Source: Spirochaetota bacterium
GTDB taxonomy: Bacteria > Spirochaetota > Spirochaetia > Treponematales > UBA12059
Assembly: GCA_029547205.1 (NCBI GenBank)
Contig: JAKPPT010000122.1
Location: forward strand, 62,001-126,000
Direction: 5' to 3'
DNA length: 64,000 nucleotides
The position numbers and the translations under genes are program-made. Every line of letters begins with the position of its first letter. The first letter of the stretch is position 1. Below, piece after piece: positions 39,915-46,973 of this stretch. The notes beneath the pieces are model-generated. The model was given only the letters and a program-made list of their open reading frames with translations, was not told the DNA's origin and searched no databases.

Positions 39915-40199
39915 TCAATCTTCATCTTCATCAGTTGCTGCTGCTGTGTCAGCAGAGCTATATGCTTTTAAGATTTCGTTTTGCAGTTTTTCCCTAAAGT
40001 CCGGACAAATGGGATGTGCTATGTCTTTATACTCGCCATTTTTTGTTTTGCGGCTTGGCATAGCAATGAAAAGATTTGATTTACCTTCAATAACTTTTAC
40101 ATTGTGAATGACAAAGCAATTGTCAAATGTTACTGTTACGTAAGCCTTTAGCTTACCCTCTGTTGTAACCCGTCGAATACGAATATCAGTAATATCCAT
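39915..40199 (-). CDS. spoVG: SpoVG-family nucleic-acid-binding regulator
   Basis: 94 residues beginning [20 protein letters not shown], the standard SpoVG start, with [26 protein letters not shown] and the C-terminal [15 protein letters not shown] helix. SpoVG proteins bind DNA and RNA; in Borrelia the homologue is a site-specific binder. The tail is acidic (ATDEDED). AAGGAG lies 9 nt before this ATG. The frame is open 38 codons further upstream (to 40313), but that extension lies in the leader. Confidence 0.95.
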
Positions 40200-40430: not shown

Positions 40431-40494
40431 AACTAGAAAAAAATCAAAAAAAATGAAAATTCTAGTTGACATAATTGCAATTCGTCTTTTAGAT
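40431..40494 (+). promoter_or_regulatory. Strong promoter with A-tract UP-like element
   Basis: TTGACA (40466-40471), 17-nt spacer, TTAGAT (40489-40494). Just upstream lies a run of A-tracts (about 40437-40459), like an UP element. It is bounded by an inverted repeat AACTAGAA (40431-40438)/TTCTAGTT (40460-40467). The 11 bases TTGACATAATT recur in the infA promoter. Confidence 0.65.
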
Positions 40495-40552
40495 TTCCAT
40501 TATACAGCGATGGATGCAAACAATCATTCCATAACATTCATAGGGGGAAATT

Positions 40553-40837
40553 ATGAATACTAATCTTAATGAATTGGAATTGGAGTTACAGACATATACA
40601 CAACTGGAACCTGAGGAAAAACTCCCATTGTATATGTTTGGTGACTTTGATGATGATTTCGATGATGATTATGACGAAGACTTTGATGACGAAGATCTCG
40701 ATGAAGATGATGATTTTGATGACTTTGATGAAGACGACGAAGACTTCGAAGATGATGAAGATTTCGATGATGAAGATGATGATTTTGACTATGACGATGA
40801 TGAAGATTTAGATTTTGACGATGACTATGATGAATAA
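40553..40837 (+). CDS. Extremely acidic small protein, function unknown
   Basis: 94 residues. The first 29 are ordinary and possibly helical (NLNELELELQTY). The last 65 contain 40 Asp, 10 Glu, 9 Phe, 3 Tyr, 2 Leu and 1 Gly, arranged as acidic runs broken by single aromatics (DDDFDDDYDED). No other residues occur there. A strong promoter, a GGGGG ribosome site 7-8 nt before the ATG and a strong terminator support a real, well-expressed gene. Candidate roles include cation buffering, nucleic-acid mimicry or an RNA polymerase delta-like acidic tail; none is shown. Confidence 0.8.
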   Translation: MNTNLNELELELQTYTQLEPEEKLPLYMFGDFDDDFDDDYDEDFDDEDLDEDDDFDDFDEDDEDFEDDEDFDDEDDDFDYDDDEDLDFDDDYDE

Positions 40838-40853
40838 GTAACGTTTTTTACAA

Positions 40854-40887
40854 AAGAGGCTGTCAATAAATGTTTTGACAGCCTCTT
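40854..40887. terminator. Bidirectional terminator
   Basis: AAGAGGCTGTCAA (40854-40866) and TTGACAGCCTCTT (40875-40887) form a perfect 13-bp stem with an 8-nt loop between the convergent acidic-protein and glutaredoxin genes. Confidence 0.85.
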
Positions 40888-40914: not shown

Positions 40915-41142
40915 CTATCTGAGCGCTCGTTCAAGCTCAGCAGTGTTAAAACCAATAATAATTTTTCCATTGATATCCGTTACCGGAACACCCATCTGAC
41001 CTGATTTCCGAACCATTTCTTCTGCCTTTCTTGGATCACTTGCGACATTGTACTCTTCAAACCGTACATTCCGTGCTTTGAGCCAATCTTTAACCATGCG
41101 ACAGTAACTGCATGTTGGTGTTGTGTATACCGAAACTGCCAT
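40915..41142 (-). CDS. Glutaredoxin-like protein (NrdH/YruB type)
   Basis: 75 residues, a minimal thioredoxin fold. The redox motif is CSYC in TTPTCSYCRMVKDWL, followed by the cis-Pro segment GVPVTDINGKIIIGF. It may reduce ribonucleotide reductase or other thiols; pairing with NrdJ is a guess. AAGGAG precedes the ATG. Single-gene unit. Confidence 0.9.
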   Translation of the reverse strand: MAVSVYTTPTCSYCRMVKDWLKARNVRFEEYNVASDPRKAEEMVRKSGQMGVPVTDINGKIIIGFNTAELERALR

Positions 41143-43313: not shown

Positions 43314-43667
43314 TGGAGGTGGGGGGAGTCGAACCCCCGTCCTAATATGCGAAGCATGAGCTTCTACAGGTTTAGATAATCTTTTTTAGTCTCAAGCCTG
43401 GCTTAGCGGATTATCACGCGGCACAGGCTCCAGCTTGTTATGTTGTCCTGTATGAATCACAAGCACATCACACAGTAAGTCCCGTAAGGTTACAGACACA
43501 TGCAATGCCCGGGACAAAACAAAGCACAGTCCGTCGTTCAACGCTTATGCAGCGAGAGCGAGAGTACCATTATTGTTGGCACTTATAGGTTTTCCCAAGA
43601 GTAAGAGCTGGGAACTCTACCTGCCACCCATGTTCCGAATCATACCAGTCGAATCCGGGGCACCCCC
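43314..43667 (-). ncRNA. ssrA: Transfer-messenger RNA (tmRNA), tag ANNNGTLALAA
   Basis: One-piece tmRNA of 354 nt. The 5' end GGGGGTG pairs with CACCTCC at the 3' end, including the G3-U70 wobble that AlaRS recognises, then discriminator A; CCA is not encoded. The 5' part has CGGATTCGACTGG and the 3' part the T-arm GGGGGTTCGACTCCCCC. The tag frame (43545-43580) is GCC AAC AAT AAT GGT ACT CTC GCT CTC GCT GCA TAA, encoding ANNNGTLALAA. It rescues stalled ribosomes and tags the products. Confidence 0.95.
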
Positions 43668-43829: not shown

Positions 43830-46800
43830 ATGTTTACAGTAGGAAATCTCGTCACGTTGTTTATATCAATCATTGTAATCCTTGTTTTTCGATATCTTGA
43901 TAAAGATAATAGGTCACTTGAAAAGATTAAACGCTTTACCGACAAGCTCATGGCAGAAATTGATGAATATGCAGCTAAACGTGAAAAAGACGTTAAAACC
44001 TATGCTGCAGAGCTTGATGCTTACAAAATGTCAGCAAAAGAAGTGCTCCGGCAGGTAACAGAAACACAAAAAAACCTTGAAGATAAAACGAATGCAATGG
44101 GACTTATAGCTCAACGCATCAGTGAATATGATGAGGCTCTTGCTGAGCTTAAAGCGATGAGCGCACGAGTAGATGAAAATTTGCAAATTATCCACAATGA
44201 AAGCAGTTTTGTTGACAAAATTGCAAATACATTAAAAAGCACAAAGCAAGATTTAGAAGCACTTAAAGCAGCAATTCCCGAAATTCGCGCACAAGCCGAA
44301 CAAACTGTTCGAATCGAAGCTGAAAACTACATTAGTGAGTTCAGAAACCTACTTGACGAGTATCAGCAAAAAGCATCACAAGAGCTTTCAACATATATGG
44401 AAACACTCAAAGAGACTAAAGCGCTTCAAACTGAACAGTATGAAACCTATAAAGCACAGTTTGACAGTGCTTTTGAAAAAGCTCAGAAAACTGCCCGTAC
44501 ACTGGAACATGAATCATTCGAACAATTAAAAACTTTTATAGTTGATCGTGGTAAATTGCTCCATGATGAATTTGAAAAAACAACACGTGAACTTGAAAAC
44601 CAGCTTACTGAGCGCACTGATAAACTGGAGGATGCATTAATACAACGTTCCAGTAAGCTAGAAGAAATGATTGATGAAAAAACTGGAACGATAAAAGAAC
44701 AACTCAAGGATAAATTACAGGATGTGCAAAATTCGCTAAAAACGATTCGTACGGAATGGACAAAAGAAGCAGAAAACCTTATGAACGGTCTTCGTAGTTC
44801 AGTAGCAACTATGCATAATGAATTGCTCACAGCTTACACACAGGCTAACACTCGCGCAAAAAAATCAGAAGAAGCTCTTATCGAAAAAATACAAAAACTC
44901 GATGCAAAATCATCAGAAATGCTTCAGACACTGCAAACAAAAATTAAAGAACAACTCAAAACGTACCAGGAAGAGCTTATCGGGAAGCAGCAGGAATACA
45001 AAGACACCATTAAAAAAGTGCTTGCAGAATTAAAATTGGAAACTGAACAGGCACAGGGACAGCTCAGTGATACTGAAAAAAGCATACTCACTACTATTAA
45101 TTCACTTGAATCTAAACTCAACACGCAGTTTGAAAAACGTATCGAAACGGCGCGAACTAATCTCGAACAGGCATTTGCTGTCATTGAAGCATCAAAACTT
45201 GATATTAAAACAATGGATCGTAGTCTTAAAGAAGCCATGCAAGCTATACAAAAACAAGTGCTCGATGAATTTTCTCAATTTGCTACTTCCATTAGAGAAC
45301 AAAAAGAAACATTTGCTCATTCAGTTGAAGATGAGATTATTAAGTTGCAATCTACAATGACTACGCTCGATGAAGAGCTTAGCAAGCTCAAAGCGCATGC
45401 ATATGAAAACGTATCAGCACAGATGAAAGTCTTTGAAGATGATTTCTTTGCTGATCTCAAGCAACGGAGCAGCGAAATTGAAAAGAGGCTCACAGAGTGG
45501 AGACTTACACTCGAACAGAGACTTGAGACTGAACTTACAAAATCAGGAGAATTCCGCACTGCAATAGAACAAAAATGGCTCACAGAGGCTAATGAACGCG
45601 CAAAAATGATTCAAAACAGAATTCAGGAAGTGTTTGAAAAAATCTCTGCAAATGTAGAAAAATATAAAGCAATGCTTGCACAGGAAACCCAGAACACGCA
45701 AGAACAGATTAAAAACCTGCACAGCTCCATTACAAAAGAAATAGCTGCAGTAAAAAAAGATACTGAAGCTCAAACAAGTACAATACAGGGAGAAATTAAG
45801 AGTTTATCACATTCAATTAATCTACTGGAGCAGGACCTCAAACAGCGCAGCACACAAGCGCTTGCTGAATTTTCAAAGACATATGAAACACTCACACTCG
45901 ATGCAGGCAAACGCACTGAAGAGATACAATCAAATCTGAACAGTGCAATCAATGCCTATAAACTGCAAGCTAAAGAATTTGAAGAAAGATTCCAGTCTAC
46001 CATTCAAAAGCTAAATCAAGAACTTAGCATCCAGGAAAAACGACACGATACGCTCTTTGCAGATTTTGAAAAACAGTTTAAAAATTTTGAAAAAGAAACC
46101 AGGCTGTTTGAACGAGCGGATGAACTTAGACAAAAACTTTCAGTGGCTATTGCAAACATGAAAGAAGATCTTGCTGCTATCAACAACCGCCAGAGTGAAA
46201 TCAATGAACTCGATCAGCAGTATGCACGCATCAAGAAAACCGAAGAAGAAATGAACCAAAAAATCAACCGATTCCTGGCAGAAAAGCGCCGGCTTGATGC
46301 AATGGAACAAGACTTTAACAAACTACTGAGCATTTCACAGCAAATTGATCAGAAACTATCACAGGTTACTGCAAGTAATGATCAGCTGACACAAATCCAG
46401 GTCGAAATTAAAAAGCTCATAGAAATTGCTGACGAAGCTTCAAGCAAATATGACCGTCTTGAAAAGAAAACTGCAGTTATTGAATCTACAACGGATACAG
46501 TGGATAAAAACTTTGATGCAATTAACAAACTCGAAAAGACTCTCGTACAGCTGCAAGAAGAACTCAATGCTATTCCAAACCAGATTATTGATATTAAGCG
46601 TTCATTGAGCGAAATTGAAGAACTTGAACCGCGGCTAGACAGCATACTTGAAAAGTACAATACAATTGATTCAGTATTGGAAGATTCTGAAAAACGAATT
46701 GATAACTTGCAAAAAGCCAGAGAATGGCTTGTTCGAGCTGAAACCCGATTCGAAGAGCTTAATAAAAAGGCAGGTGAAAACCTTAAACTCCTCCGTGATG

Positions 46801-46973
46801 TATTAAAGAAAGAACCAGTATCAGGTGATTCGAGCAGCGCACCACCTCTGAGCGTTCAGGATTCAGTCCGAAAGCTGGCTCACCAGGGTTGGAAAACTGA
46901 TGAAATTGCTAAAGCATTAAAACTTTCTCGTGGCGAAGTCGAGCTCATACTTGAGCTTCCCTATGAAAAATGA
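43830..46973 (+). CDS. SpiroCoCo-type giant coiled-coil membrane protein
   Basis: 1047 residues. One N-terminal membrane segment (VGNLVTLFISIIVILVFRYL) is followed by about 950 residues of nearly continuous coiled coil rich in Glu, Lys, Gln, Leu and Thr. The C-terminus (after a Pro/Ser linker at about 1000) is a small helix-turn-helix-like unit: VRKLAHQGWKTDEIAKALKLSRGEVELIL. This fits the spirochaete coiled-coil (SpiroCoCo) proteins, probably structural and linked to the membrane. AAGGATAGGA precedes the ATG. Confidence 0.85.
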   Translation: MFTVGNLVTLFISIIVILVFRYLDKDNRSLEKIKRFTDKLMAEIDEYAAKREKDVKTYAAELDAYKMSAKEVLRQVTETQKNLEDKTNAMGLIAQRISEYDEALAELKAMSARVDENLQIIHNESSFVDKIANTLKSTKQDLEALKAAIPEIRAQAEQTVRIEAENYISEFRNLLDEYQQKASQELSTYMETLKETKALQTEQYETYKAQFDSAFEKAQKTARTLEHESFEQLKTFIVDRGKLLHDEFEKTTRELENQLTERTDKLEDALIQRSSKLEEMIDEKTGTIKEQLKDKLQDVQNSLKTIRTEWTKEAENLMNGLRSSVATMHNELLTAYTQANTRAKKSEEALIEKIQKLDAKSSEMLQTLQTKIKEQLKTYQEELIGKQQEYKDTIKKVLAELKLETEQAQGQLSDTEKSILTTINSLESKLNTQFEKRIETARTNLEQAFAVIEASKLDIKTMDRSLKEAMQAIQKQVLDEFSQFATSIREQKETFAHSVEDEIIKLQSTMTTLDEELSKLKAHAYENVSAQMKVFEDDFFADLKQRSSEIEKRLTEWRLTLEQRLETELTKSGEFRTAIEQKWLTEANERAKMIQNRIQEVFEKISANVEKYKAMLAQETQNTQEQIKNLHSSITKEIAAVKKDTEAQTSTIQGEIKSLSHSINLLEQDLKQRSTQALAEFSKTYETLTLDAGKRTEEIQSNLNSAINAYKLQAKEFEERFQSTIQKLNQELSIQEKRHDTLFADFEKQFKNFEKETRLFERADELRQKLSVAIANMKEDLAAINNRQSEINELDQQYARIKKTEEEMNQKINRFLAEKRRLDAMEQDFNKLLSISQQIDQKLSQVTASNDQLTQIQVEIKKLIEIADEASSKYDRLEKKTAVIESTTDTVDKNFDAINKLEKTLVQLQEELNAIPNQIIDIKRSLSEIEELEPRLDSILEKYNTIDSVLEDSEKRIDNLQKAREWLVRAETRFEELNKKAGENLKLLRDVLKKEPVSGDSSSAPPLSVQDSVRKLAHQGWKTDEIAKALKLSRGEVELILELPYEK

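Follow-up and report, generated by a model that had tools for sequence, protein, structure and literature searches.

On comparative evidence, a small gene for a 94-residue protein built mostly of acidic and aromatic residues is a real gene, anciently conserved in the Spirochaetia; codon comparisons showed it to be fast-evolving yet under purifying selection, and it appears to be transcribed on its own, from a promoter dedicated to it. The family to which it belongs looks undescribed and, in the collections searched so far, is confined to spirochaetes, while acidic disordered proteins as a kind are already known. The gene was studied in a window of 64,000 nucleotides from a Spirochaetota genome (contig JAKPPT010000122.1, positions 62,001 to 126,000), the features of which are listed in Table 1. 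From the conservation described below, we infer that the gene is transcribed and translated.

Table 1. Features at the acidic-aromatic protein locus (window coordinates)
Feature	Coordinates	Strand	Evidence
Gene-specific promoter: -35 TTGACA (40466-40471), 18-bp spacer ending GTCTTT, -10 TAGATT (40490-40495)	40466..40495	+	Comparative
Ribosome-binding site AGGGGGAA	40542..40549	+	Placed as in homologues
Acidic-aromatic protein gene, 94 aa	40553..40837	+	ORF present; homologues
N-terminal module, residues 1-29, NELELELQ...LPLYMF	40553..40639	+	Alignments, structure model
65-residue D/E tail, F/Y 2-11 residues apart	40640..40834	+	Composition, model
C-terminal motif DFDYDDDEDLDFDDDYDE	40781..40834	+	Alignment, C-terminal column analysis
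Inverted repeat, probable terminator	40854..40887	+	Perfect 13-bp stem, 8-nt loop
spoVG, divergent neighbour	39915..40199	-	NF009749; usual neighbour across the acidic-aromatic family
YruB-type glutaredoxin, convergent neighbour	40915..41142	-	Particular to the window genome; rsfS at that side elsewhere

The Protein and Its Gene

The protein bears a net charge of about -55, with very few basic residues. A recount of residues gave exactly the composition reported in the first-pass annotation: counted from G30, the tail comprises 40 Asp, 10 Glu, 9 Phe, 3 Tyr, 2 Leu and 1 Gly, or 66 residues in all if F29 is included. In a single-sequence structure model (mean pLDDT 55.9), residues 5-12 formed one weak helix and the rest had no regular structure, the tail region being of low confidence; the protein is predicted by this model to be disordered. 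It should be cytosolic, because a reading of the sequence by eye, rather than by a formal predictor, revealed no hydrophobic signal-like segment.

The ribosome site proposed earlier was recovered: AGGGGGAA lies at the same distance from the start as the GGGAGGA of the homologues, the start codons of some of which were picked by a ribosome-site match. The terminator assigned to the gene was confirmed in part. Its stem is perfect, but the T-run is weak on the plus strand, and the inverted repeat is probably common to the convergent glutaredoxin gene. Farther along, the window holds a tmRNA gene (43314-43667, tag peptide ANNNGTLALAA) and a coding region for a 1047-aa coiled-coil protein of the SpiroCoCo family (43830-46973; NF047514/NF047515).

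Homologues Revealed by Gene Order

The first-pass annotation had advised a search for homologues at this locus and had held a lack of conservation in related genomes against its reading; the search did find conservation. With the bare protein as the query, genomes of the same family gave two weak matches only (E 0.02-0.04), both of them acidic-aromatic proteins of about 100 residues adjoining spoVG. The spoVG flanks were read in all 23 genomes of the family, and the order was then searched with an alignment, which placed members in families f1, f4 and f5. Because of their low complexity, such proteins are under-counted by profile searches: alignment A3, which contains the window protein, missed that very protein at E 0.01, and the match that the window protein did give (E=3e-16) was to a profile including the window protein itself. 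We therefore also inspected the rsfS flanks, where an acidic ORF converging on rsfS was found in 17 of the 22 genomes with rsfS, the member in the window adjoining spoVG instead. Four genomes (G024, G027, G032 and G036) showed no acidic gene beside rsfS, as judged from the rsfS flanks only, and the first three are suggested to belong to the T. denticola and T. pallidum lineages. The carriers include the metagenome genomes HGW-Spirochaetae-3 (locus L008), RA.bin110 (L016), QR_Bin.15 (L017), UBA4077 (L022) and UBA6076 (L025).

Family members are about 80-118 residues long, with net charges of about -42 to -81. The usual gene order is a LytR-CpsA-Psr protein gene, rsfS converging on the acidic gene, the acidic gene itself, and then ispE and spoVG reading away, so that in most of the order the single-copy gene lies where the LytR-rsfS block meets the (ispE)-spoVG-L25 block. 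The window protein shares with the family the divergent spoVG, the promoter, an alignable N-terminal module and body, and a lengthened form of the C-terminal motif. Beside rsfS in G026, the acidic ORF of locus L138 (1035-1478, plus strand; net charge -81 in 104 aa) has Trp for some of the Phe/Tyr and shows neither the N-terminal module nor the C-terminal motif usual in the family.

Among 30 genomes from other orders of the class, 8, representing six families, had an acidic ORF at the corresponding position. None of these ORFs matched the family significantly in sequence; their proposed homology relies on position and composition, to which some add the same promoter (L200, L208) or a similar C-terminus (L197, L200, L201).

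The locus had been described as lying between spoVG and a glutaredoxin gene. The first neighbour proved to be the usual one, but the second did not: rsfS is generally found on that side, and in the window genome it sits apart from the acidic gene (G000:C132:7179-7460). In a control set of 36 spirochaete glutaredoxin loci, every ORF fell short of 20 D/E in 30 residues; the association with glutaredoxin is therefore peculiar to the window genome. In relatives, a short protein adjoining the glutaredoxin gene combines a very basic KRQKDLAKKKKKEEKLKKKQERK stretch with an acidic tail (L008, 5251-5478; L009, 869-1132; L011, 5271-5588; L013, 1645-1923; all on the minus strand); a basic motif of the KRQKDLAKKKKKEEKLKKKQERK type was sought in the window and none was found.

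A functional link to rsfS or spoVG was considered but not adopted. In G002 and G003 the gene is found with rsfS and outside the spoVG flank, and the window shows the reverse; since the rsfS, ispE, spoVG and L25 blocks break apart without loss of the gene, its neighbours give no functional clue.

A Promoter Specific to the Gene

The promoter in the window was first picked by a simple scan, the total hits of which were no more than expected by chance; it is the comparison that gives it weight. The same architecture was found upstream of 43 of the 47 homologues, comprising TTGAC[AT] and, 18 bp farther on in 37 members and 17 bp in 6, TAGATT, TATGTT or a close variant of these. The flanks are also kept (AG before the -35, GA after it, and CTCYYT just before the -10), giving the family pattern AGTTGACAGA-N10-CTCYYT-TA[GT][AG]TT, which the window promoter matches without a mismatch. 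When 27 genomes were scanned for the composite pattern TTGACA-N12-STCYYTTAKRTTT, allowing up to one mismatch, 22 of them, including the window genome, had exactly one match, always before the acidic gene. The promoter claimed for the gene from the window sequence thus finds its counterpart in nearly all homologues. A reversed control pattern gave one match each in G031, G039 and G240 (family f5), above the chance expectation.

The leader from promoter to start codon is anywhere between 20 and 104 nt long, and an Rfam scan of it for an RNA element gave no match. Since leader length varies freely, it is the promoter that is constrained, rather than an RNA element. The CTCYYT element, the 18-bp spacer and the single occurrence per genome suggest unusual kinetics of open-complex formation or a regulator devoted to this promoter.

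Conserved Ends and Purifying Selection

Three conserved parts were recognized in the family: the N-terminal module (consensus E-L-x-L..V....P[FL]...F-D-D), an acidic body studded with aromatics, and a C-terminal motif with the consensus [DE][YF]DY[ED][DE]D[VIL]DY[DN]DFDE. The N-terminal sequence of the window protein given in Table 1 is its form of the first, and DFDYDDDEDLDFDDDYDE is its form of the last (DYDYxDD[VIL]DY[DN]DFDE), lengthened by about three residues. When the C-terminal residues of 27 diverse members were aligned from the stop codon without gaps, the summed entropy over 18 columns was 20.7, as against a mean of 34.7 and a minimum of 30.5 for 1000 shuffles of the tails, and the Asp at -4 from the C-terminus was invariant. 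In 29 of 46 members (63%), the window protein among them (p=0.02), the spacing of the aromatics was more even than expected at random (p<0.05).

Close pairs gave dN/dS values of 0.04-0.20 for the whole gene and 0.01-0.13 for the tail alone. Across the 832 tail codons compared, synonymous differences (135) outnumbered replacements (83), and 48 of the replacements exchanged Asp and Glu; only 8 gained or lost an aromatic. Together with the occurrence of homologues in many genera and C-terminal columns conserved beyond the shuffles, these tail values bear out the earlier statement that the ORF is not a chance frame.

Relation to Known Acidic Proteins

Searches of Pfam, NCBIfam, PHROGs and PDB gave no family match above the cut-off, and a literature collection with few subscription journals gave no relevant description of a spirochaete acidic protein.

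The closest comparison is with the delta subunit of RNA polymerase (RpoE) of Bacillota, whose disordered C-terminal region (residues 91-173, net charge -47) enters the main channel, competes with nucleic acid and displaces it from the polymerase; the C-terminal peptide alone, in excess, has similar activity (PMC7749165). The spirochaete protein, comparable in length and charge (about -55 in 94 residues), is likewise predicted to be a disordered acidic chain, with Asp or Glu at 50 of 65 tail positions and an unstructured model. In contrast to delta, it has no folded N-terminal HARE-HTH domain, only some 29 residues preceding the tail; aromatics are spaced along its chain, and its C-terminal motif is conserved. 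PF05066 was found neither in the protein nor in the window genome, where control profiles did match; the genome has no delta gene. Membership in the delta family, to which the first-pass annotation had compared the tail, was therefore rejected; a delta-like action is possible.

Long Asp/Glu runs also occur in the eukaryotic tails of HMGB1, ANP32 and DAXX, which autoinhibit DNA binding or serve as electrostatic chaperones (PMC10250230, PMC11333492). Each of these tails belongs to a larger folded protein that binds DNA, RNA or histones, whereas here little of the protein lies outside the acidic chain, in which Phe/Tyr recur at regular places. An acidic tip of the SSB type (...DDDIPF, with a terminal Phe) was rejected as well, since members end in ...DY[DN]DFDE and not in Pro-Phe.

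Among bacterial proteins, MsyB and other highly acidic proteins are small, cytosolic and extremely acidic. The spirochaete protein resembles them in size, acidity and probable cytosolic location, but it has no Pfam or NCBIfam match above the cut-off and, in the collections searched, is so far found in spirochaetes only.

Possible Function

By analogy with the delta tail, we tentatively favour, at somewhat less than even chances, a free-standing disordered polyanion that is docked by its end motifs and mimics nucleic acid against a basic partner. Position-specific conservation at both ends and the conserved aromatics point to a specific protein partner rather than to bulk charge, and the charge of the protein suggests that the partner surface is basic, such surfaces being mostly those that bind nucleic acid. 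The N-terminal module and the C-terminal DYDYxDDVDYDDFDE motif would dock the protein in the cytosol on a basic component of transcription or translation, RNA polymerase being the first choice and a ribosomal or RNA-binding protein the second. The flexible acidic chain would compete electrostatically with DNA or RNA on the partner surface, and the aromatics would supply short-range contacts. Release or recycling would thereby be promoted, or unproductive binding prevented, just as with the disordered acidic region of Bacillus delta, by a spirochaete protein lacking the folded anchor of delta. The fact that the gene was not seen beside rsfS in the presumed T. denticola and T. pallidum genomes suggests that such a function is not universally required.

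A general polyanionic chaperone or solubiliser, acting with little sequence specificity in the manner of MsyB, DAXX or ANP32, would keep basic or aggregation-prone proteins soluble. The extreme charge, the predicted disorder and the spaced aromatics, able to contact exposed hydrophobics, all suit such a role, which acidic low-complexity tails are described as playing elsewhere (PMC11333492). We regard it as rather unlikely, because conserved end motifs and a fixed C-terminal spacing exceed the needs of bulk charge.

With about 50 carboxylates in 65 residues, the tail might also buffer Ca2+, Mg2+, Mn2+ or polyamines with low affinity and high capacity. The calcium binding suggested earlier did not hold in its EF-hand-like form: the window protein has no DxDxDG-type loop, only 2 of 47 members have a loop-like sequence, and no flanking helices appear in the model. 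Moreover, buffering needs neither conserved aromatics nor end motifs, and no metal-homeostasis gene was found among the neighbours, which makes this role improbable.

Aromatic "stickers" within acidic "spacers" could phase-separate with basic or RNA-binding proteins, making the protein a condensate scaffold or client. This accords with the even aromatic spacing seen in the majority of members and with the rarity of aromatic gain or loss, but several members (e.g., L137 and L138) have large aromatic-free stretches, and spacing is less conserved than the C-terminal motif; we consider it improbable. Finally, a functionless expansion of GAT/GAC/GAA triplets can be dismissed almost with certainty, since the detectable repeats of 6-48 bp are only 59-87% alike, synonymous change dominates with D/E identity kept, and the promoter and ribosome site are conserved, so that the comparative data rule out a chance ORF or a repeat expansion.

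A more particular and improbable reading is a free-standing, spirochaete-specific polyanionic cofactor of RNA polymerase (or the ribosome), functionally the tail of delta with the domain left out, which would be anchored by short end motifs and whose dedicated promoter, with its 18-bp spacer and CTCYYT element, would make expression sensitive to the protein's own activity.

In bacteria, conserved disordered proteins made almost purely of acidic and aromatic residues easily escape detection. Here, synteny and a gene-specific promoter revealed one that purifying selection has kept in much of a bacterial class. The apparent absence of the gene beside rsfS in T. pallidum- and T. denticola-like genomes makes presence/absence comparisons useful for approaching its function. 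If the protein is a nucleic-acid mimic acting on transcription or translation, it would give D/E-repeat and acidic-aromatic sequences a simple model in bacteria and would fill a gap in the picture of spirochaete gene expression.
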